64,000 nt of DNA from Kordia zhangzhouensis. GTDB taxonomy: Bacteria; Bacteroidota; Bacteroidia; Flavobacteriales; Flavobacteriaceae. The notes under the pieces were generated by a model that saw only the letters and a program-made list of their open reading frames with translations, had not been told where the DNA came from and did no database searches. The stretch covers positions 186,001 to 250,000 of the forward strand of contig NZ_LBMH01000003.1 of the NCBI RefSeq assembly GCF_001005305.1, written 5' to 3'. The translations under genes and the position numbers were made by a program. Shown here in pieces: positions 18,377 to 28,667 of the stretch; within the stretch, counting starts at the first letter, position 1; each line of letters starts with the position of its first letter.

Positions 18377-19402
18377 ATGAAAACTGTTACATTAAAGCAA
18401 ATTGCAGAGAAACTAGGCGTTTCAGTTACTACAGTTTCAAAAGCATTAAAGGATTATCCTGACATTAGTGAAAATACAAAGCAAATTGTCAAGAATATGG
18501 CAAAATCGATGAATTTTGTCCCTAATGCTTCTGCTGTTTATTTGCGTACACAAGAATCTAAAACTATAGGTGTCGTTATTCCTGCTTTAGTTCATCATTT
18601 TTTTTCGAAAGTAATTGATGGAATTCTCAATAAAGCAGAAAAAAGTGGCTATTTGGTTATTTTGATGCAATCTAATGAGAACTATGAATTAGAGAAGAAA
18701 CAAATTGATTTACTTTTAAAAAAAGGGGTTGATGGAATTTTAATTTCACTTTCCAACAATACTAACAATTTTGATCATTTAAAGCGTGTACAAGAATACA
18801 ATATTCCGCTTATTTTATTTGATAAAATAGCAAAAACTGTCAATTGTAGCAAAGTGGTTATTGATGACAGAAAAGCTGCATATGATGCTGTTACGCATTT
18901 AATTAATAAAGGTCATAGGCGAATTGCCCATTTTCGAGGCGATTTAAATCCACAAAATTCTATTGATCGTTTTTTAGGTTACAAAAAAGCCTTAGAAGAT
19001 CACGGAATTAGTTACGACCCTTCGCTCGTATACATATGTAATAAAAATTCTGACTTTAAAGATGGTTATAAAACAGCGGCAAAATTGATAGAAGATCATC
19101 AAAATACCGTAGATGCTGTTTTTACAATTACAGACGCAGTTGCCATTGGAGCCATGAAATATTTTTCAGATCATTCTATTACTGTTCCTGACGAAATTGC
19201 TGTTTTTGGTTTTAGCAATTGGTTTATGTCCTCTGTTACCAATCCTCCTCTTTCAACAGTTAAACAACCAGGATATAAAATGGGAAAAAAGGCCACTCAG
19301 CTTTTACTAAATGAGATTGAAAACAAAAAAAGTGGAATCTCTTCCATTCCTCAAAAAATTATACTTCCTACGGAGTTAATTATAAGAGCTACTTGTTCTT
19401 AA
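18377..19402 (+). CDS. LacI-family transcriptional regulator of the sugar locus
   Basis: A 341-residue regulator. The HTH and hinge (about 1-60) contain LKQIAEKLGVSVTTVSKALKDYPDIS and the minor-groove hinge helix region NASAVYLRTQ. The rest is a periplasmic-binding-protein-like effector domain (TIGVVIPALVHHFFSKVIDGI, then VDAVFTITDAVAIGAMKYF). It is divergent from the receptor gene, and the tandem palindromes between them are its likely targets. The effector could be trehalose, a derivative such as trehalose-6-phosphate, or another sugar. Confidence 0.92.
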   Translation: MKTVTLKQIAEKLGVSVTTVSKALKDYPDISENTKQIVKNMAKSMNFVPNASAVYLRTQESKTIGVVIPALVHHFFSKVIDGILNKAEKSGYLVILMQSNENYELEKKQIDLLLKKGVDGILISLSNNTNNFDHLKRVQEYNIPLILFDKIAKTVNCSKVVIDDRKAAYDAVTHLINKGHRRIAHFRGDLNPQNSIDRFLGYKKALEDHGISYDPSLVYICNKNSDFKDGYKTAAKLIEDHQNTVDAVFTITDAVAIGAMKYFSDHSITVPDEIAVFGFSNWFMSSVTNPPLSTVKQPGYKMGKKATQLLLNEIENKKSGISSIPQKIILPTELIIRATCS

Positions 19403-19545
19403 TAGTTAGTAATTGTGAATTTCAGTATTGAAAAGTAAAACAAATAACGTGTTTTAATTACGAGTCTTTATAGCTTTACATTTTAATAAAAAGTTTGAGA
19501 AACACATTTTACTTTGTAAAATATCAAAAAAAATCATCTTTTGAA

Positions 19546-19577
19546 TTGATGATATAAAACTTAATTTAGTACTTTTG
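19546..19577 (+). promoter_or_regulatory. Promoter of the arginine operon leader
   Basis: The -33 TTG (19546-19548) and -7 box TACTTTTG (19570-19577) are separated by 21 bp, a good Bacteroidota promoter. The G of the -7 box is 5 nt before the ATG of leader peptide 1, so transcription may start at that ATG. The mRNA would then carry about 300 nt before the first enzyme gene. I see nothing in 19403-19545. Confidence 0.6.
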
Positions 19578-19582
19578 CTTTC

Positions 19583-19648
19583 ATGATTTCTCAAAATAAG
19601 ACATATAGAATACTACCCGAAGTGCGTTTTCGACGCCGACGCTGCTAA
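19583..19648 (+). CDS. Putative arginine leader peptide 1 (21 codons, six Arg)
   Basis: ATG 19583 opens a 21-codon frame ending TAA 19646-19648. The peptide ends in ILPEVRFRRRRC: six Arg in 21 residues, four of them consecutive, encoded CGA-CGC-CGA-CGC. It is the first frame of the transcript that leads to nine arginine-biosynthesis genes, which is the classic layout of an attenuator in which ribosomes stall at Arg codons when charged tRNA-Arg is scarce. The Arg codons and stop lie within possible hairpins (GCGT/ACGC at 19625-19636, and 19641-19646 with 19656-19662). Too short for routine gene calls. Sequence evidence is strong, mechanism inferred. Confidence 0.65.
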   Translation: MISQNKTYRILPEVRFRRRRC

Positions 19649-19842
19649 TTCTACAAGCGAGCACAGTATTTTATTCATTAATGTTTTATTTATTTTTCTT
19701 GAATCATAATTTTTCTATATCATTTTACCAGAGTAGCGTTATTTTAATAAATAACAATATTCCTGTACGCCGCTTTTTTATCCGACGCCCGTAAGGGTGC
19801 ACTTCTATTTTGGGAACTTAGGTGAGTCCGGTTCTTTCTCTT
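19619..19842 (+). promoter_or_regulatory. Structured leader RNA of the arginine operon
   Basis: A locally GC-richer island in AT-rich flanks. GAAGTGC (19619-19625) can pair with GCACTTC (19799-19805), while its GTGC part can instead pair with GCAC (19661-19664), so the two pairings exclude each other. CGCCC (19786-19790) pairs with GGGTG (19795-19799) over the stop of leader 2. A weak terminator-like hairpin, GAAC-GG / CC-GTTC (19814-19834), is followed by a T/C-rich stretch to 19842. The layout fits an RNA switch ruled by ribosome position. The exact terminator and antiterminator are not resolved. Confidence 0.5.
19681..19794 (+). CDS. Putative arginine leader peptide 2 (37 codons, Arg-rich end)
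   Basis: ATG 19681 opens a 37-codon frame ending TAA 19792-19794. The first two thirds are hydrophobic and Asn-rich; the end reads IPVRRFFIRRP with Arg codons CGC-CGC and CGA-CGC. It resembles leader 1 (ILPEVRFRRRRC): both have P, then VR, then F, then an Arg block at the end, and both carry CCGACGC in the same frame (19636-19642 and 19782-19788). That looks like a duplicated Arg-sensing element. The true start may be further inside, since the 5' part has no other support. Confidence 0.45.
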   Translation: MFYLFFLNHNFSISFYQSSVILINNNIPVRRFFIRRP

Positions 19843-19887
19843 CAAGATACATCTAAATAATATTTTAATCATTTTTTAATTGAACAC

Positions 19888-20505
19888 ATGGAAATTGTCA
19901 TTGCAAACAATTCACATAGCGTTTACGCTGAAACTATTTGTGAAACTATCCTACAAGCTGCTCAGATAAGAGGAACAGGAATCGCAAAGCGAAAGCCAGA
20001 ATATATAATCTCAAAAATGGCACAAGGAAATGCTGTCATTGCTTTAGACGGTAAAACGTTTGTAGGTTTTTGTTATATCGAAGCTTGGAGTCATGGAAAA
20101 TTTGTCGCAAACTCTGGACTCATTGTGCATCCTGACTATCGAGGAAAAGGCATTGCTAAACAAATAAAGAAAAAAATATTTGAACACTCTAGAGCAAAGT
20201 TTCCTAATGCAAAAGTATTCAGCATCACTACTGGATTAGCTGTTATGAAGCTCAACAGTGAGTTAGGTTACAAACCAGTTCCATTTTCAGAACTCACAGA
20301 AGATCAATCTTTTTGGAATGGTTGTCAAACGTGTAAAAACTTTGACGTTTTACAACGCACGCAACAAAAAATGTGCTTATGCACAGGCATGTTGTACGAT
20401 CCGAACTCAAATGATCAAATACAAAAAACAAAAATTAAAGAGAAGGTTTTCAATAGATTAAAAAGTATTAAACAAACCTTATTTCTAAAAAAAGATAAAA
20501 AATGA
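19888..20505 (+). CDS. GNAT acyltransferase, probable first enzyme of arginine synthesis
   Basis: A 205-residue GNAT-fold protein with the acyl-CoA motif HPDYRGKGIAKQI (81-93). It heads the arginine operon and overlaps argG by 4 bp. It most likely acylates glutamate (acetyl or succinyl group), replacing classical ArgA or ArgJ; neither is seen here. A C-terminal addition holds four cysteines, Cys146-x2-Cys149 and Cys163-x-Cys165, a possible zinc site beyond the GNAT core. The acyl donor is not decided by the sequence. The transcarbamylase further down the operon favours succinyl. Confidence 0.8.
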   Translation: MEIVIANNSHSVYAETICETILQAAQIRGTGIAKRKPEYIISKMAQGNAVIALDGKTFVGFCYIEAWSHGKFVANSGLIVHPDYRGKGIAKQIKKKIFEHSRAKFPNAKVFSITTGLAVMKLNSELGYKPVPFSELTEDQSFWNGCQTCKNFDVLQRTQQKMCLCTGMLYDPNSNDQIQKTKIKEKVFNRLKSIKQTLFLKKDKK

Positions 20506-21698
20506 ATACTCCAAAAAAATTAGTGCTTGCATATAGTGGTGGATTAGACACATCCTATTGTGCAATCCATTTGGCCAAAGACAAACATTTTGAAGTACAT
20601 GCCGTAAGTGTAAATACTGGCGGATTTTCAGAAGAAGAAATTAAAAAAATTGAAGAAAACGCATATAAAATAGGTGTTTCGACGTATAAAAATATTAATG
20701 CAGTTAGCACTTATTATAAAAAGGTAGTCAAATATTTAATTTTTGGAAATGTGTTAAAAAATAATACCTATCCACTATCGGTAAGTGCTGAACGTATTGT
20801 GCAAGCTATTGAAATTATAGAATATGCGAAAAGTGTGAATGCAACATACATTGCACACGGAAGTACAGGCGCAGGAAACGATCAAGTCCGTTTTGATATG
20901 ATTTTTCAAACACTAGCTCCAGAAATTGAAATCATTACACCTATAAGAGATCAAAAATTAACACGTGAAAAAGAAATTCAGTATTTAAAAATGAATGGAA
21001 TCGATTGGTCTTGGAAGAAAGCAAAATATTCTATCAACAAAGGACTTTGGGGAACAAGTGTTGGTGGAGACGAAACCTTGACTTCCCATAAAACATTACC
21101 TGAAGAAGCATATCCTTCACAACTTCAAAAACAAGAAGAGGAAAAGGTTCAACTTACCTTTCTAAAAGGGGAATTGGTTGCTGTGAATGGAAAACAAAAC
21201 GTTCCAGAAATTAATATCGAAATCTTAAACAAATTAACCTCTAGTTTTGCCATAGGAAGAGACATTCATGTAGGCGATACCATCGTTGGGATTAAAGGAC
21301 GAGTTGGGTTTGAAGCCGCTGCAGCTATTATCTGTATCAAAGCACATCATCTATTGGAAAAGCATGTATTAACCAAATGGCAACTGCAACACAAAGAGTA
21401 TCTCGCTAGTTTTTATGGTATGCATTTACATGAAGGACAATACTTAGATCCTGTAATGCGTGATATTGAAAGTTATTTACAAAGCAGCCAAGAAACAGTT
21501 TCTGGAAATGTTTTCATCACATTAAAACCATATCATTTCACTTTAGACGGTATTGCGTCCAAACACGATTTAATGAATGCAAAATTTGGCAGTTATGGAG
21601 AAATGAACTCCAATTGGACCGCTGATGAAGCCAAAGGTTTTATAAAGATTGTGGGAAATCAAAACAAAATTTATCAACAAGTAAACTCAAACCTATGA
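20502..21698 (+). CDS. argG: Argininosuccinate synthase
   Basis: A 398-residue cytosolic enzyme that joins citrulline and aspartate using ATP. The N-terminal P-loop is complete (YSGGLDTSYC, 11-20). HGSTGAGNDQVRFD, a synthase signature for citrulline and aspartate binding, and WSWKKAKYSINKGLWGTSVGG follow. Length is normal for the family. Its start overlaps the GNAT gene and its end overlaps argC (ATGA), so translation is coupled throughout. Confidence 0.95.
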   Translation: MNTPKKLVLAYSGGLDTSYCAIHLAKDKHFEVHAVSVNTGGFSEEEIKKIEENAYKIGVSTYKNINAVSTYYKKVVKYLIFGNVLKNNTYPLSVSAERIVQAIEIIEYAKSVNATYIAHGSTGAGNDQVRFDMIFQTLAPEIEIITPIRDQKLTREKEIQYLKMNGIDWSWKKAKYSINKGLWGTSVGGDETLTSHKTLPEEAYPSQLQKQEEEKVQLTFLKGELVAVNGKQNVPEINIEILNKLTSSFAIGRDIHVGDTIVGIKGRVGFEAAAAIICIKAHHLLEKHVLTKWQLQHKEYLASFYGMHLHEGQYLDPVMRDIESYLQSSQETVSGNVFITLKPYHFTLDGIASKHDLMNAKFGSYGEMNSNWTADEAKGFIKIVGNQNKIYQQVNSNL

Positions 21699-22672
21699 TA
21701 CAAGTTGGAATTATTGGAGGAGCAGGATATACAGCAGGTGAATTGATTAGATTATTGATACATCATACAAAAGTAAAAATCAATTTTGTGTACAGTACTT
21801 CAAATGCGGGAAATAAAATTAGTGAAGTACATCAAGATTTAATTGGTACTATCGATATGTTATTTACCTCCACTATTAATACTGATGTAGATCTTGTTTT
21901 TTTATGTTTAGGGCATGGAAATTCGAAAGCATTTTTGACAGAAAATAAATTTTCAGCAAAAACTAAAATTATAGATTTAAGCTCTGATTTTAGATTAAAA
22001 TCTAATAAAAACTTTCAAGAAAAAGACTTTGTTTATGGTCTGCCTGAATTACAAAAAGAAACAATTAAAGGAGCTAATTATATTGCAAATCCAGGCTGTT
22101 TCGCAACAGCTATTCAGCTAGCCTTATTACCATTAGCCAATGCTAATCTTATAAAAGAGGATGTTCATATTAATGCCGTAACAGGAGCTACCGGTGCAGG
22201 AACTTCATTGAGTAAAACCACTCATTTCACATGGAGAGACAACAATTTTTCCTATTACAAACCTTTTACACATCAGCATTTAGGAGAAATCAATCAGTCA
22301 GTTAAACAACTCCAAAGTGATTTTGATGGTGAGATTAATTTTATACCAAACAGAGGCAATTTCTCAAGAGGAATTTTTGCAACTCTCTATACAAAATATG
22401 AAGCTTCTTTAAACAAAGCTATATCACTCTACAAAGAATACTATAAAAAAGCAGCATTCACATTTGTATCTGAGTACGATTTGCATTTAAAACAAGTAAT
22501 AAACACTAACAAATGCTTTATTCATTTACATAAACACAACAATAAATTATTAATAACAAGTTGCATCGATAATCTTTTAAAAGGAGCGTCCGGACAAGCT
22601 ATTGAAAATATGAACCTAATGTTCGGGTTTGAAGAAACTGAAGGATTGCAATTAAAAGCCAACTTTTTTTAA
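21695..22672 (+). CDS. argC: N-acyl-gamma-glutamyl-phosphate reductase
   Basis: A 325-residue NADPH-dependent reductase that turns acylglutamyl phosphate into the semialdehyde. The Rossmann glycine motif GGAGYTAGEL (8-17) and the catalytic Cys135 in NPGCFATAIQLAL are present, as are GATGAGTSL and the ending signature KGASGQAIENMNLMFG. It starts inside the argG stop. Confidence 0.95.
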   Translation: MIQVGIIGGAGYTAGELIRLLIHHTKVKINFVYSTSNAGNKISEVHQDLIGTIDMLFTSTINTDVDLVFLCLGHGNSKAFLTENKFSAKTKIIDLSSDFRLKSNKNFQEKDFVYGLPELQKETIKGANYIANPGCFATAIQLALLPLANANLIKEDVHINAVTGATGAGTSLSKTTHFTWRDNNFSYYKPFTHQHLGEINQSVKQLQSDFDGEINFIPNRGNFSRGIFATLYTKYEASLNKAISLYKEYYKKAAFTFVSEYDLHLKQVINTNKCFIHLHKHNNKLLITSCIDNLLKGASGQAIENMNLMFGFEETEGLQLKANFF

Positions 22673-22683
22673 CTAAAATCTAT

Positions 22684-23484
22684 ATGAAAATCGCAATTAT
22701 AGGAACAGGTAATTTAGGGAAGTCTATCGCTAAAGGGTTAATTACTACTAACGCAATAACTACTCTGTACTTAACAAAACGTAATTTAGAAGAACTTCAA
22801 GAATTTACAAGCTTCACTAACGTTTTTTTAACCTCGAATAACGAAGAAGCGGTCAAGAATTCCGACATTTTAATTTTTGCTGTACAGCCAAGACATTTTG
22901 AAACCATTTTGAACAGCATCAAACATGTGTTGACAGAAAAACATGTCTTAATATCCACAATTACGGGCTTTTCCATTTCAAAAATAGAATCGATAGTTGG
23001 TGATAATCAATTTGTTATAAGAGCCATGCCTAATACTGCTATCGCTGTAGGTAAATCGATGACCTGTTTATGCTCGAATGTAAACGGTAAAGAGCGAATT
23101 AAAATTGCGCAAGCAATCTTTAATAGGCTAGGAAACTCTATTGTGATTCCAGAAACGCAAATGCAAGCGGCTACTGTAGTTTGCGCAAGCGGAATTGCTT
23201 TTTGGATGCGATTAATAAGGGCCACAACACAAGCAGCAATTCAATTAGGTTTTGATGCAAAAGAAGCGCAAGAATTAGCAATGTTTACTAGTGAAGGTGC
23301 CGCAAACTTATTAATCACAACAGGAAATCATCCTGAAGAAGAAATAGATAAAGTGACGACTCCAAAAGGATGTACTATAGAAGGATTGAATGAAATGGAA
23401 CATAAAGGATTAAGCTCCTCATTAATTCAAGGAATGGTTGCATCATTCAATAAAATTAACACCATTAAAGAAGAACAGATATGA
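22684..23484 (+). CDS. proC: Pyrroline-5-carboxylate reductase
   Basis: A 266-residue NAD(P)H enzyme that makes proline from pyrroline-5-carboxylate. N-terminal GTGNLGKSI (7-15), central RAMPNTAIAVGKSMT, and the C-terminal signature VTTPKGCTIEGLNEME are all intact. It sits between argC and argD, which is unusual outside Bacteroidota and places proline synthesis under the same control as arginine. It overlaps argD by 4 bp. Confidence 0.93.
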   Translation: MKIAIIGTGNLGKSIAKGLITTNAITTLYLTKRNLEELQEFTSFTNVFLTSNNEEAVKNSDILIFAVQPRHFETILNSIKHVLTEKHVLISTITGFSISKIESIVGDNQFVIRAMPNTAIAVGKSMTCLCSNVNGKERIKIAQAIFNRLGNSIVIPETQMQAATVVCASGIAFWMRLIRATTQAAIQLGFDAKEAQELAMFTSEGAANLLITTGNHPEEEIDKVTTPKGCTIEGLNEMEHKGLSSSLIQGMVASFNKINTIKEEQI

Positions 23485-24605
23485 GTTTATTTGATGTATA
23501 TCCACTTTTTGATGTAACGCCAATTAAGGCAAAAGATGTTTTTGTGTATGATGATAATAATATAAAGTATCTTGATTTATACGGAGGTCATGCTGTCATT
23601 TCAATTGGGCATTCACATCCTGAATATGTAAAAAACATCAGTCATCAAGTGGCTAAACTTGGTTTTTATAGCAATTCCATTCAAAATCCTCTACAACACG
23701 AATTATCTACTAAACTTTGTAAAATTTCTGGATGTGAACACTACCACTTATTTCTCTGTAATTCAGGTGCAGAAGCTAATGAAAACGCCTTAAAACTAGC
23801 TTCTTTCCATACAGGAAAGAGCAAAGTAGTTGCATTTAAAAATGGATTTCACGGGCGAACTTCAGCTGCAGTAGTAGCCACCGACAATCCCAAAATAATT
23901 GCTCCTATTAATGCTCAACAAGAAGTAGAGTTAATTGAATTAGGAGATTTAATAACCCTTGAAAAGGCATTATCTAAAAATGATGTGTGCGCTGTAATTG
24001 TAGAAATAATTCAAGGGATTGGTGGTTTAGATGAAGCGTCTACAACATTTTATCAAGGATTAGAACAATTGACAAAAAAATATAAGACTCTTTTAATAGC
24101 AGATGAGATTCAATGTGGTTACGGACGAACGGGCGATTTTTTTGCTTTTCAGAAACACAACATAACTCCAGATATTATTTCTATAGCAAAAGGTATGGGG
24201 AATGGGTTTCCTGTCGGAGGAATTCTAATTCATCCAGCTATCAAAGCTACTCACGGTTTGTTAGGCACCACCTTTGGAGGCAATCATTTGGCATGTTCTG
24301 CTTCTTTGGCTGTATTAAAAGTATTAGAAGAAGAGAAATTGCTCGACCACACAAAACATATGTCAAATTATTTCAAAGAAAAAGCAAAAGAGATCCCGCA
24401 AATTAAAAAAGTAAAAGGAAGAGGATTGATGCTTGGGTTAGAATTCGATTTTCCAATTGCTACATTGAGAACGCAATTAATTCATGATCAGAAGGTATTT
24501 ACAGGAAGTTCTAAAAATCCAAATTTATTGAGAATACTTCCTCCATTAACCATTCAACAACAGCATATGGATCAATTTTTTAAAGCACTAAAAGCAGTAG
24601 TATGA
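23481..24605 (+). CDS. argD: N-acylornithine aminotransferase
   Basis: A 374-residue PLP-dependent class III aminotransferase that converts the acylglutamate semialdehyde to acylornithine. The cofactor-binding NSGAEANENALKLA, the Asp of LLIADEIQCGYGRTG, and the PLP lysine Lys237 in SIAKGMGNGFPVGG are present. Like other members of the family it could also serve in lysine synthesis. It overlaps proC and the transcarbamylase by 4 bp each. Confidence 0.93.
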   Translation: MSLFDVYPLFDVTPIKAKDVFVYDDNNIKYLDLYGGHAVISIGHSHPEYVKNISHQVAKLGFYSNSIQNPLQHELSTKLCKISGCEHYHLFLCNSGAEANENALKLASFHTGKSKVVAFKNGFHGRTSAAVVATDNPKIIAPINAQQEVELIELGDLITLEKALSKNDVCAVIVEIIQGIGGLDEASTTFYQGLEQLTKKYKTLLIADEIQCGYGRTGDFFAFQKHNITPDIISIAKGMGNGFPVGGILIHPAIKATHGLLGTTFGGNHLACSASLAVLKVLEEEKLLDHTKHMSNYFKEKAKEIPQIKKVKGRGLMLGLEFDFPIATLRTQLIHDQKVFTGSSKNPNLLRILPPLTIQQQHMDQFFKALKAVV

Positions 24606-25537
24606 AAAAATACATTAGTATATACGACATAGAGAACGTTACTGAAACAATACAAGAAGCTTTAATACTTAAGAAAAATCCGTATAACTATTCGGACATA
24701 GGAAAAAATAAAACTTTAGTAATGCTCTTTTTTAATGCGAGTTTGCGCACCAGATTGAGTACTGAAAAAGCGGCTAAAAATTTAGGTATGCAAGTAACAA
24801 CGTTAAACGTTACAGATGCTTGGAACTTAGAGTTTGAAAATGGCATTACAATGAATTTGAATGCTGCAGAGCATATTAAAGAAGCAGCACTCGTTATTTC
24901 ACAATATGCAGATATAATCGCTGTAAGAGCGTTTCCGAGTTTAATTGATAAAGAAAAAGATGAATCAGAATATGTCATACAAAGCTTTGTTAAATATGCC
25001 ACTGTTCCAGTAATCAACATGGAAAGTGCTACAAAACATCCGCTACAGGCATTAGCAGATGCTATAACCATTGAAGAATTAAAAACCATAGAAAAACCAA
25101 AGGTGGTTTTATCGTGGGCACCACACCCAAAAGCGTTGCCACAAGCAGTAGCTAATTCGTTTGTAAAAATGATGCAAAAACTCAATGTTGATTTTAGCAT
25201 AACACATCCTAAAGGTTATGAACTCAACTCCGAAATCACTAAAAACATACCTATTTGTTACAATCAAAAAGAAGCTTTAAAAAATGCTGATTTTGTATAT
25301 GTGAAAAACTGGAGTAGTTATGAATCCTATGGAAAAGTGTTACATCAGGACTCCAATTGGATGATAACAAAGGAGAAATTGAATACTGCAAAATTTATGC
25401 ATTGTTTACCCGTAAGAAGAAATGTTGTGGTGGAAGATGCGGTATTAGATGGAGAGCACTCTGTAGTAATTCAACAGGCACATAACAGGGTGTTTTCTGC
25501 GCAAATAATATTAAAAAAAGTCTTAGAAAATCTATAA
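24602..25537 (+). CDS. argF': N-acylornithine carbamoyltransferase, predicted N-succinylornithine type
   Basis: A 311-residue transcarbamylase that makes N-acylcitrulline instead of citrulline. It lacks the standard STRT loop and has NASLRTRLSTEKA (45-57). The substrate loop and ending FMHCLPVRRNVVV agree with the AOTCase/SOTCase branch. Just before the conserved Glu90-His91, where acetylornithine enzymes have Glu (Glu92 in Xanthomonas) and the Bacteroides succinylornithine enzyme has Pro90, this protein has Ala89. Published swaps of that Glu to Ala or Pro give succinylornithine specificity, so succinyl is predicted. It occupies the position of argF and no ordinary argF is seen. Confidence 0.88.
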   Translation: MKKYISIYDIENVTETIQEALILKKNPYNYSDIGKNKTLVMLFFNASLRTRLSTEKAAKNLGMQVTTLNVTDAWNLEFENGITMNLNAAEHIKEAALVISQYADIIAVRAFPSLIDKEKDESEYVIQSFVKYATVPVINMESATKHPLQALADAITIEELKTIEKPKVVLSWAPHPKALPQAVANSFVKMMQKLNVDFSITHPKGYELNSEITKNIPICYNQKEALKNADFVYVKNWSSYESYGKVLHQDSNWMITKEKLNTAKFMHCLPVRRNVVVEDAVLDGEHSVVIQQAHNRVFSAQIILKKVLENL

Positions 25538-25539
25538 TC

Positions 25540-26316
25540 ATGGAAACATTGAAAATTGTAAAAATTGGCGGAAACATTATAAATGATGAAAATGATTTAG
25601 CCAATTTCTTGGATGATTTTGCAAAATTAGCTTCTCCAAAAATTTTGGTGCATGGAGGCGGAAAATCAGCTACCAAATTGGCACAACAAATGAATATTGA
25701 GGTACAAATAAAAGATGGTAGACGTATTACAAACGCAGACACTTTAGACATTATAACTATGGTTTATGCAGGGAAAATCAATAAAACAATCGTTGCAACG
25801 CTGCAAGCAAAAAACACCAATGCTATTGGTCTCTCTGGTGCTGACGGCAATAGTATAGTTTCAAAGAAACGTGCAGTAACAACTATTGATTACGGATTTG
25901 TAGGGGACATTCAAAAAGTCAACATTCACACATTAAAACTACTTCTTAATCAAAACATTACTCCTGTATTTTGTGCAATTACGCACGACAAAAATGGACA
26001 ATTGTTAAATACAAATGCAGATACTGTTGCTTCTGAATTAGCCATTGCTTTTACAAACGAATACACTACAGAGTTATATTATTGCTTTGAAAAAAATGGG
26101 GTATTAGAAAATGTCAATGACAGCGATTCTGTTATTGAAAAAATTGATTCGAAAAACTATCAAAACTTATTAAAAAGTAACATCATTACAGATGGAATGC
26201 TGCCAAAGCTCGCTAATTGTTTTCATGCAGTTACGCATCAAGTACAAAAAATTCACATTGGAAAATATGCAATGTTGCTGGATAAAAATTTAAAACATAC
26301 AACCATTCAAAAATGA
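25540..26316 (+). CDS. argB: N-acylglutamate kinase
   Basis: A 258-residue amino-acid kinase that phosphorylates the acylated glutamate side chain. The N-terminal KIGGNII, the substrate glycine loop VHGGGKSATKL, GLSGADGNSIVSKKR, and the nucleotide-binding NTNADTVASELAIAF are present. There is no C-terminal arginine-binding extension, so it is the short form. Feedback by arginine may therefore rest more on gene expression, an inference. It starts 2 bp after the transcarbamylase. Confidence 0.93.
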   Translation: METLKIVKIGGNIINDENDLANFLDDFAKLASPKILVHGGGKSATKLAQQMNIEVQIKDGRRITNADTLDIITMVYAGKINKTIVATLQAKNTNAIGLSGADGNSIVSKKRAVTTIDYGFVGDIQKVNIHTLKLLLNQNITPVFCAITHDKNGQLLNTNADTVASELAIAFTNEYTTELYYCFEKNGVLENVNDSDSVIEKIDSKNYQNLLKSNIITDGMLPKLANCFHAVTHQVQKIHIGKYAMLLDKNLKHTTIQK

Positions 26317-27380
26317 ACCATACCAAATTAACAAACGAAGCAATTACGTTACTGAAGCAACTTATTGAAACCCCTTCATTTTCCTCTGAAGAAGAAGGTA
26401 CTGCAATACATATAGAAAATTGGTTTTTGCAACACAACATTCCTTTTAAAAGAACAAATAATAACATTTGGGCAACCAATTTACATTTTGAAGAAAGCAA
26501 ACCTACATTGCTCTTAAATTCACATCATGATACGGTACAACCTAATAATGGATATACTAAAAATCCATTTAAAGCCATTATAGAAAACGGAAAACTATAC
26601 GGCTTAGGAAGTAATGATGCTGGTGGTTGTTTGGTTTCACTCATCGCAACCTTCACTTACTTTTACCATCAACCAAACTTAAAGTACAATCTTGTCATTG
26701 TTGCTTCCGCAGAAGAAGAAAGTAGTGGTGAAAATGGATTGAATAGTATGTTATCTATCATTCCTAAAATTGATGTTGCCATTGTTGGAGAGCCTACATT
26801 AATGCAACTAGCCATTGCCGAAAAAGGATTGTTGGTTTTTGATGCTATCGTTACAGGAACACCAAGTCACGCTGCACATCTCAACACAGACAATGCCATT
26901 TATAACACCATAAAGGTTTTGCAATGGTTTCAAGAATACACTTTTAAAAAAACATCTGCTATATTAGGAGACGTAAAAATGACTGTTACACAAATCAATG
27001 CAGGGAAACAACATAATGCCGTTCCAGCAAATGTACATTTAGTAGTTGATGTTCGTGTTAATGATGCATATACCAACAAAGAAATTGTTTCCATCTTACA
27101 AAAAGAATCGCCTTGCACATCTATCATTCCAAGAAGCTTACGACTAAACTCTTCCTCTATTCCTAAAGAGCATCCATTGGTACAAGCGGGTATTGCTTTG
27201 GGTAGAAAAACTTATGGATCTCCCACACTATCTGACCAAGCTGTATTGTCCTGTCCTTCTGTAAAATTAGGACCTGGAGATAGCTCTCGTTCACATACTG
27301 CAGATGAGTTTATATATATAGAAGAAATAGAAGAAGGAATTAAAATTTACATCGAGTTATTAAAGAAACTAGTATACTAA
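26313..27380 (+). CDS. argE: M20-family deacylase acting on N-acyl-citrulline/ornithine (ArgE/DapE type)
   Basis: A 355-residue metallopeptidase-fold deacylase. Metal-binding motifs are visible: LLLNSHHDTVQP (first His-x-Asp), GLGSNDAGGC (bridging Asp), AEEESSGENG (catalytic Glu and metal Glu), and a C-terminal GPGDSSRSHTADEF with the last His. It should release the acyl group from N-acylcitrulline produced by the preceding transcarbamylase, before argG uses citrulline. It overlaps argB by 4 bp. Acetyl or succinyl specificity cannot be read off. Confidence 0.88.
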   Translation: MNHTKLTNEAITLLKQLIETPSFSSEEEGTAIHIENWFLQHNIPFKRTNNNIWATNLHFEESKPTLLLNSHHDTVQPNNGYTKNPFKAIIENGKLYGLGSNDAGGCLVSLIATFTYFYHQPNLKYNLVIVASAEEESSGENGLNSMLSIIPKIDVAIVGEPTLMQLAIAEKGLLVFDAIVTGTPSHAAHLNTDNAIYNTIKVLQWFQEYTFKKTSAILGDVKMTVTQINAGKQHNAVPANVHLVVDVRVNDAYTNKEIVSILQKESPCTSIIPRSLRLNSSSIPKEHPLVQAGIALGRKTYGSPTLSDQAVLSCPSVKLGPGDSSRSHTADEFIYIEEIEEGIKIYIELLKKLVY

Positions 27381-27392
27381 AATAGAAAACAT

Positions 27393-28667
27393 ATGAAACT
27401 TTGGGATAAAGGAATTAACATAGATAAAAAAATTGAAGCATTTACTGTTGGAAACGACAGGGAAATAGATATGTATATTGCTAAATACGACATATGGGCT
27501 TCGTTAGCACATGCAAAAATGTTGCATAAAATTAATAGCATTACTACTGAAGAATTGGAGCAGCTTACTGAAGGATTGGAAACCTTACTAATGCAACTAC
27601 ACAACGATACTTTTGTAATAGCATCACAGTTTGAAGATGTACATTCAAAAATTGAATATGAGCTTACAAAAGCGTATGGTACTGTGGGAAAAAAGATTCA
27701 TACCGCACGTTCTCGAAACGATCAAGTGTTGGTCGCTTTACAATTATTTTATAAAGACAATTTAAACTTCATCACAGAGCAAACACAAGTTTTGTTTGAG
27801 ACGCTTTTACAATTGGCAGAAACACATAAAGAAGTTTTATTACCTGGGTATACACATTTACAAGTTGCTATGCCCTCTTCTTTCGGGTTATGGTTTTCTG
27901 CCTACGCAGAACTTTTAATTGATGATGTGTATCTCTTACAAGCAGCTTTAAAAACAGTAGATCAAAACCCTTTAGGTTCGGCAGCAGGTTACGGAAGTTC
28001 TTTTCCTATTGACAGAGCTTTTACAACAAATGAATTAGGTTTTAAAACTTTAAAATACAATGTAGTTGCTGCACAATTAAGCAGAGGAAAAAGCGAACGA
28101 ACAGTTGCTATGGCATTGGGAAGTTTATGCAATACGTTAGCACGATTTGCGATGGATATTTGTTTATATATGAGTCAAAACTTTGGTTTTATTTCGTTTC
28201 CAGATGCTTTCACGACAGGAAGTAGCATTATGCCTCATAAAAAAAACCCCGATGTTTTTGAACTCATTCGAGGAAAATGCAATAAAATTCAGGCGCTATA
28301 TTCAGAAATGTTACTCATTACAAACAATTTACCAAGCGGCTACCACAGAGATTTTCAACTTTTAAAAGAACACATGATTGCTGCTTTTTTAGATGTAAAA
28401 AACATATTAGAAATCTTCAATCATTCTATCAAACAAATTCAAGTAAAAAAGGTTGATTTGAGTGATGAAAAGTACAAATATCTTTCTACTGTAGACAGTA
28501 TTAATAATTTAGTAATGAATGGTGTTTCGTTTAGGGAAGCTTACCAAACCATTGGCAAGCAAGTACAAGAAGGTATTTACATACCTGAAATCTCCAAAAA
28601 ACATACACATATTGGCAGTATTCATAATTTATGTTTGGATCAAATTCGTGCTAAGTTTCCGAATTAG
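27393..28667 (+). CDS. argH: Argininosuccinate lyase
   Basis: A 424-residue fumarase/aspartase-superfamily lyase that releases arginine and fumarate, the last step. Conserved motifs are HTARSRNDQV, PGYTHLQVAMPSSFG, and the superfamily signature GSSIMPHKKNPD. It is slightly shorter at the C-terminus than the E. coli enzyme (457), as is common in this phylum. It is the last gene of the operon, followed by a hairpin terminator. Confidence 0.95.
   Translation: MKLWDKGINIDKKIEAFTVGNDREIDMYIAKYDIWASLAHAKMLHKINSITTEELEQLTEGLETLLMQLHNDTFVIASQFEDVHSKIEYELTKAYGTVGKKIHTARSRNDQVLVALQLFYKDNLNFITEQTQVLFETLLQLAETHKEVLLPGYTHLQVAMPSSFGLWFSAYAELLIDDVYLLQAALKTVDQNPLGSAAGYGSSFPIDRAFTTNELGFKTLKYNVVAAQLSRGKSERTVAMALGSLCNTLARFAMDICLYMSQNFGFISFPDAFTTGSSIMPHKKNPDVFELIRGKCNKIQALYSEMLLITNNLPSGYHRDFQLLKEHMIAAFLDVKNILEIFNHSIKQIQVKKVDLSDEKYKYLSTVDSINNLVMNGVSFREAYQTIGKQVQEGIYIPEISKKHTHIGSIHNLCLDQIRAKFPN

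Follow-up and report, generated by a model that had tools for sequence, protein, structure and literature searches.

A candidate translation-dependent arginine leader upstream of the arginine operon in Kordia zhangzhouensis and other Flavobacteriaceae

Gene context and parts of the leader

All coordinates refer to the window, the whole stretch of 64,000 nt that was analysed, which spans positions 186,001-250,000 of the forward strand of contig NZ_LBMH01000003.1 from Kordia zhangzhouensis (GCF_001005305.1; phylum Bacteroidota, class Bacteroidia, order Flavobacteriales, family Flavobacteriaceae). The leader lies between a LacI-type regulator gene and a nine-gene arginine (arg) operon, and its parts are listed here together with the operon:

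19570-19577, +: Bacteroidota −7 box TACTTTTG (TAnnTTTG), from sequence; predicted transcript start at about 19582
19583-19648, +: ORF1, leader peptide MISQNKTYRILPEVRFRRRRC, 21 aa with 6 Arg
19594-19614, +: 5' arm of P0, within ORF1, pairing with 19665-19691 in the predicted fold
19665-19691, +: 3' arm of P0, U-rich, just before the ORF2 start (predicted fold, swap test)
19681-19794, +: ORF2 as reported from the ATG at 19681, 37 aa with 4 Arg, ending IPVRRFFIRRP
19699-19794, +: ORF2 from the probable conserved start (TTG here), LNHNFSISFYQSSVILINNNIPVRRFFIRRP; TTG, GTG and ATG exchange in relatives, by eye
19738-19755, +: AU hairpin within ORF2, GTTATTTTAATAAATAAC (sequence, swap test)
19768-19773, +: ORF2 Arg codons −8/−7 from the stop (CGC CGC), the proposed stall site leaving H1 free
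19783-19788, +: ORF2 Arg codons −3/−2 (CGA CGC), the second within H1 (sequence)
19786-19799, +: H1, CGCCC-GTAA-GGGTG, with the UAA stop in its loop and a loosely U-rich tail (sequence, alignment)
19812-19834, +: H2, a variable outer stem with a conserved tip; 6 of 8 pairs changed on both sides
19820-19829, +: H2 tip AGGTGAGTCC, with a bulged A, GG:CC pairs and the loop UGNGU (126 distinct leaders)
19888-20505, +: GNAT acetyltransferase, first gene of the operon (Pfam PF00583)
20502-28667, +: argG, argC, proC, argD, carbamoyltransferase (N-acetylornithine type), argB, argE/dapE-type deacylase and argH (NCBIfam best matches)

The NCBIfam matches of several arg operon genes fall below the curated cut-off of the model. 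The argB product has 258 aa and is matched by the argB model at residues 6-240. The operon also contains proC (22684-23484), and the leader peptides are Pro-rich as well; Pro makes up 11.2% in frame versus 11.8% in one of the off-frames, so that it is inseparable from base composition.

Distribution in Flavobacteriaceae

A GNAT protein search of 60 relatives found a match in 33 genomes and returned 30 loci, among which all 25 from Flavobacteriaceae share the element upstream of GNAT and all five from other Flavobacteriales families lack it there. A covariance model of the 3' part of the leader (R1), built from the alignment of these 25 loci, matches 246 of 397 Flavobacteriaceae genomes and 155 of 237 genera, and all matching genomes but one have a single match. 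In the 110 R1 loci examined, which are the better-scoring ones among the matches listed and several of which repeat model genomes, argG lies downstream in every case, and 108 of them also have GNAT, each time with argG following on its strand. When 295 Bacteroidia genomes were searched, R1 gave six matches, four of them within Flavobacteriaceae; the two weak ones outside the family (E 0.0044 and 0.0078) are unlike the element. The sequence-only reading had proposed aligning the regions upstream of GNAT-argG in other Flavobacteriaceae for conserved Arg codons, and Arg codons were indeed found to be enriched there, in frame only and across much of the family.

The counts below derive from 140 loci, of which 132 have an element located by a tip pattern; 126 of these leaders are distinct, and 124 enter the peptide counts, L012 and L143 being left out as leaders in which the script found no ORF. 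The loci without a pattern match are L025 and L027-L030, from other Flavobacteriales families, and L079, L088 and L112, which carry the element by the RNA model. Two of the former, L027 and L028, come from one such family and have a single Arg-rich ORF before GNAT, ending RRRPVRV and RRRPVRR, respectively, followed by a hairpin with the loop TACGT and a short U-rich tail, with no H2.

Twenty of the 151 R1-negative Flavobacteriaceae genomes were tested; 17 are without argG and three have a close argG. By eye, the genomes G027, G084 and G066, with argG and no R1 match, carry H1-like hairpins and different H2-like hairpins. In the genus g147, five genomes have argG and none has an R1 match; three of them carry another near-promoter ORF containing Arg, with no H2, and no leader was seen within 380 nt in the other two (both by eye). 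The leader ORF of the g147 loci L156, L157 and L158 reads MNK.SLHITSLSRTN.P..SPEVR.L with CGG/AGA codons; its start apparently pairs with a U-rich stretch, and the next frame reaches the GNAT start codon. In ten genomes of the genus of Kordia, two have no argG match and one has a distant match only (27% identity; G002, G007 and G010 are those affected), and it looks as if arginine synthesis was lost more than once in this genus. G007 and G010 gave no GNAT match either; one of these two lacks argG and the other has the distant match.

The arginine repressor ArgR (PF01316) gave no match in the K. zhangzhouensis genome and was found in 0 of 120 Flavobacteriaceae genomes, and the same search was positive in 9 of 14 control genomes, including E. 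coli, B. subtilis and a Bacteroides. With Rfam 15 at gathering scores, the whole window yields tRNA only and nothing at the leader; the five matches in 19400-19900 have E values of 0.7-2.6, far below gathering scores.

Promoter-proximal ORFs with in-frame Arg codons

In F. psychrophilum the −7 box is placed at −12 to −5, and leaderless mRNAs amount to 5.5%, according to the main text of PMC9723704. An exact promoter box was located in 47 of the 124 leaders and none in the other 77. Box and ATG are 7 nt apart in 17 of the 23 single leaders, which have one leader ORF, and 4-5 nt apart in 19 of 24 other leaders with an exact box, which places the start of the first leader ORF approximately 0-3 nt from the predicted transcript start. 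Specifically, ORF1 of the window is predicted from its sequence to begin 1 nt from the transcript start.

The sequence-only reading had described two Arg-rich frames in the leader, and both are present, at 19583-19648 and 19681-19794. ORF2 probably comprises 31 codons rather than 37, because relatives have TTG, GTG or ATG where the window has the TTG at 19699 (by eye). The further suggestion that one of the frames was copied from the other, based on the shared word CCGACGC, did not hold up, as the RNA contexts differ and the word is not kept in relatives (by eye). Two features expected of trp/his-type attenuators are found here: the leader sits between the promoter and the first gene of the matching operon, and it contains ORFs rich in the cognate codon, namely the Arg-rich ORF1 and ORF2.

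Over the 12 codons that precede the last Arg pair of ORF2, the share of Arg is 18.1% when read in frame, compared with 4.7% and 3.5% for the two alternative frames and 2.9% for 15 ORFs of the window. The signs that the leader ORFs are translated are evolutionary ones. The codons are biased as well: CGC and CGT together account for 476 of 529 Arg codons (90%; 275 CGC and 201 CGT) in the last 16 codons of the 124 leaders, and for 63 of 171 in the 15 window ORFs (AGA 66, CGT 48, CGA 33, CGC 15, AGG 7, CGG 2). ORF2 ends with Arg-Arg-Pro (RRP) in 115 of 124 leaders (55 tandem, 23 single and 37 assigned to neither class). In the 55 tandem ORF2s with this end, Arg is always present at −3 and −2, is frequent at −8 (73%) and −7 (67%), and is found at −6 in 9%, at −5 in 2% and at −4 in 16%. 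In the single ORFs (n=23), Arg occupies −4 in 91%, and the preferred places are −4/−3/−2.

Tandem and single leaders

An upstream Arg-rich ORF1 was defined by a length of 14-32 codons, at least 3 CGN among its last 11 codons and a position 130-300 nt before the H2 tip. ORF1 is present in 62 of the 124 distinct leaders, and in 61 of these 62 tandem leaders the distance from its stop to the H2 tip is 161-180 nt. As controls, segments shuffled in 2-base blocks gave 1 positive in 1240, and reverse complements gave none in 124. In 23 of the 124 leaders, the ORF ending at H1 is also the one that begins at the promoter, and these leaders are single. The tandem arrangement described in the sequence-only reading stands for half of the leaders and does not extend to these 23. 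The remaining 39 leaders were assigned to neither class, a number that includes L118, which is single and for which the script picked the wrong ORF. In a GNAT tree that is midpoint-rooted and has many weak forks, one group of 31 holds 22 of the 23 single leaders and 9 non-assigned ones, and the other group of 93 holds all 62 tandem leaders, 30 non-assigned ones and 1 single leader.

Hairpins around the end of ORF2

H1 is short and nearly constant, usually contains the ORF2 stop and overlaps the last Arg codons. Its outermost pair is absent in 30 of 100 model-aligned matches, and a stem search found it in 93 of 124 leaders, with a threshold that hid the shortest stems. In L016 and L104, which have lost the RRP-stop end, H1 is retained through a compensatory change of CCC/GGG to CAC/GTG, and the stop codon has moved out of H1 (by eye); further leaders put the ORF2 stop later. 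The sequence that separates H1 from H2 varies.

H2 combines a variable outer stem, with at least 5 contiguous pairs in 121 of 126 leaders and a small internal loop in the other five (by eye), with a tip of the consensus A-GG-UGNGU-CC. The tip reads GGTGAGTCC in 95, GGTGTGTCC in 18 and GGTGCGTCC in 11 of 126 distinct leaders, a conservation that is biased upwards because the leaders were located by a tip pattern allowing only two further variable positions. The H2 arms form at least 4 pairs in 96% of own versus 53% of swapped combinations, and the own-versus-swapped pairing energy gives z = −11.7 with the kinship of the sequences left in. In the 100 model-aligned matches, 92.4% of H1/H2 cells are paired and 75 cells are changed on both sides; the expectation from shuffling is 33.1, and none of 500 shuffles reached 75. 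These are 100 chosen loci fitted to the model, and the result leans towards it. When the structure is slid by one column, 55 doubly changed cells still remain, because two stem registers occur. One GG:CC pair of H2 is A-U in 2 of 100 sequences. Neither the H2 arms, the H2 loop nor the 3' side of H1 showed a covarying alternative partner in the leader, by a test to which invariant pairings are invisible.

Additionally, two pairings upstream are supported in the 62 tandem leaders, with the kinship of the sequences left in both tests: P0 gives z = −6.3 in the own-versus-swapped test, and the pairing of the ORF2 end with the stretch before it gives z = −6.4. No equivalent of P0 was found among 48 single leaders. 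Downstream, the H2 tip lies 54-76 nt from the first ATG in 119 of 132 leaders, and the stretch between H2 and this ATG is poor in G and contains T5 runs in 62 of 112 leaders.

Several other roles for the H2 region were considered and rejected. GGGAAC..AGGTGAGTCC, which we take to resemble a cobalamin core, has no match in Rfam to a cobalamin-like or other riboswitch. A 2:3 antiterminator made of GGGTGCACTT and AGGTGAGTCC can form well in the window but shows no covariation with the loop across 126 leaders. The H2 loop pairs strongly with the CGCC arm, but both parts are nearly invariant, so that the swap test is uninformative, and this pairing is broken in L148 (by eye). AGGTGA (19820-19825), in the H2 tip, is complementary to the 16S rRNA tail; a Shine-Dalgarno role of this AGGUGA in the H2 loop does not fit, as N is A, U or C, L148 breaks it and no matching start codon was seen. 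For an antisense RNA against the H2 loop, the sole reverse-strand match of AGGTGNGTCC in the genome falls within a putative aroB frame (by eye).

A proposed sensor and its alternatives

From its sequence features, we propose that 19582-19887 probably acts in cis as an arginine sensor that depends on translation and serves the nine-gene arg operon. The progress of the ribosome in ORF2 would decide whether H1 forms. Given ample arginyl-tRNA, the ribosome would reach the stop inside H1 and cover the hairpin; when the tRNA for CGC/CGU is scarce, it would stall at Arg −8/−7, upstream of H1, and leave H1 free, or alternatively at −3/−2, inside H1. With the usual ribosome footprint, an A site at −8/−7 leaves H1 free, whereas one at −3/−2 or at the stop melts it. 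We assume from the task of the operon that it would be derepressed on arginine shortage. The output may lie in transcription, translation or mRNA decay; masking of the start codon is the least likely, because the region around the start of the first gene is open and poor in G.

The window and the family were also scanned for intrinsic terminators. In the window, H1 is the only terminator-like site, with the tail CACTTCTATT; in a loose scan of the 124 leaders, H1 is terminator-like in 56, another such site lies upstream in 10 and none at or after H2, and 49 of 620 leaders shuffled in 2-base blocks have any terminator-like site. Given the 56 leaders, H1 may act on transcription. Because H1 overlaps the stop and the last Arg codons, its sign as a terminator would depend on the place of the stall: a stall at −8/−7 would lower expression on shortage, which is the wrong sign, and only one at −3/−2 would raise it.

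These results bear on textbook trp/his-type attenuation, in which a stalled ribosome allows an antiterminator to form and an intrinsic terminator before the first gene forms otherwise. We consider this reading rather unlikely. Several features point towards it: leader ORFs with Arg codons stand at the 5' end, the genome also has a textbook his attenuator, H1 is terminator-like in the window and in the 56 leaders, and the P0 of tandem leaders runs into a U-rich stretch. However, the 124 leaders have no terminator-like site at or after H2, no antiterminator pairing covaries, and H1 overlaps the ORF2 stop, so that a ribosome completing ORF2 would block H1. Of the ribosome-mediated attenuation put forward in the sequence-only reading, the Arg-codon leader ORFs are borne out; a terminator has a loose candidate in H1, and for an antiterminator no covarying partner was found.

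Arrest by the nascent peptide, whereby free L-arginine would stop the ribosome on RRP-stop with a logic opposite to that of codon stalling, appears improbable. It would account for the RRP end of ORF2 in 115 of 124 leaders, and translation is known to be slow where Pro precedes a stop codon. However, the body of the ORF2 peptide is not conserved between genera, so that the residues beyond the codon run that nascent-chain arrest would conserve are missing; moreover, L016 and L104 keep H1 without RRP-stop, further leaders have a later stop, and ORF1 has a different end.

The near-invariance of the H2 tip, in leaders located by its pattern, and the double-sided change of one GG:CC pair in 2 of 100 sequences are what would be seen in a recognised RNA motif. 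H1-H2 could accordingly be an RNA aptamer or a protein-binding site, with the Arg-rich frames arising merely from the CGCCC arm of H1, yet we find this quite improbable, given that the enrichment of Arg, seen in frame only, extends to the 12 codons preceding the Arg pair of H1, that the Arg-rich ORF1 ends more than 100 nt before H1, and that the H1-H2 spacer is variable. Finally, it is scarcely credible that the leader ORFs merely raise downstream translation by re-initiation with no arginine sensing, a role that PMC4833913 proposes for leader genes near structural genes, as the Bacteroidetes peak given there is 11-14 bp and the ORF2 stop of the window lies 93 nt before GNAT, and as the Arg bias would be left unexplained.

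Returning to the translation-dependent sensor, we tentatively extend it to a fuller version that we regard as possible and open to considerable doubt: across Flavobacteriaceae the leader would substitute for ArgR through a near-leaderless leader ORF, joined in many genera by a second one acting in series with it, with the position of the ribosome read by H1 and H2 and with neither an antiterminator nor start masking. The count of 0 in 120 for ArgR raises the question of how arginine is sensed in Flavobacteriaceae, to which the leader is a widespread candidate answer.

Comparison with known leader peptides

No description of an arginine leader of Flavobacteriaceae was found in the literature searched, which for PMC9723704 comprised the main text. 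There, 'strong clues' are reported for leader peptides before amino-acid operons of F. psychrophilum generally, and 'arginine' appears once, concerning cyanophycin; in the passages of PMC9976891 that were consulted, the word does not occur.

Leader peptides seem to be in wider use in the K. zhangzhouensis genome, given that it also has a his and a Thr leader. The his attenuator (L163, G000:C43, about 11.4-12.4 kb, minus strand) has the leader MSFIQLHHHHFHTCPQAS and a perfect terminator AAAACCCGTTTGAGTACATCAAACGGGTTTTTTT before hisG. Before a homoserine dehydrogenase gene (L167, G000:C3, minus strand) lies a Thr-rich leader ORF ending TIATTTPFGVL, whose last Thr codons fall within a CCCC-TTTT-GGGG hairpin that resembles H1; an H1-like hairpin over the end of a leader ORF is perhaps a general design in this lineage. 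In the same genome, ilvD and a second homoserine dehydrogenase gene have no such leader directly upstream.

Like his and trp attenuators, the arg leader places an ORF with cognate codons before the operon. In the former, the leader ORF is followed by a terminator, and there is also an antiterminator. In the arg leader, by contrast, the only hairpin resembling a terminator shares sequence with the stop codon, an antiterminator was not seen, the first ORF has a near-leaderless start, and two ORFs occur in half of the leaders. The arg leader is absent from Rfam, and the parts of its switch appear unlike those of textbook attenuators. Ribosomes of this bacterial group mostly ignore Shine-Dalgarno sequences, and the leader, with its near-leaderless start, would offer a case of ribosome stalling that is read in an unfamiliar way, with the H2 tip as a defined RNA motif for study.

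Control of arginine by a leader peptide also exists in fungi, where the arginine attenuator peptide differs in that free arginine acts on a conserved nascent peptide and stalling represses. In the rbfL case of Staphylococcus aureus, an uORF likewise senses arginine through Arg codons, but as presented in PMC13009471 the stall covers the start of the next gene and represses, the codons are AGA/AGG and no arginine operon is involved. The closest worked-out case, and a precedent, is orf34-speF of Salmonella as described in PMC6386406: there, arginine is sensed by Arg codons standing in pairs within a leader ORF, stalling permits a hairpin close to the stop to form, and the position of the stop matters. 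That system differs in controlling an ornithine decarboxylase rather than arginine biosynthesis, in belonging to gammaproteobacteria, and in having a conserved peptide domain, a long leader and a dependence on RNase G and Rho (PMC6386406). Compared with these systems, the proposed sensor would extend leader-peptide control to an arginine biosynthesis operon, with leader ORFs arranged in series.
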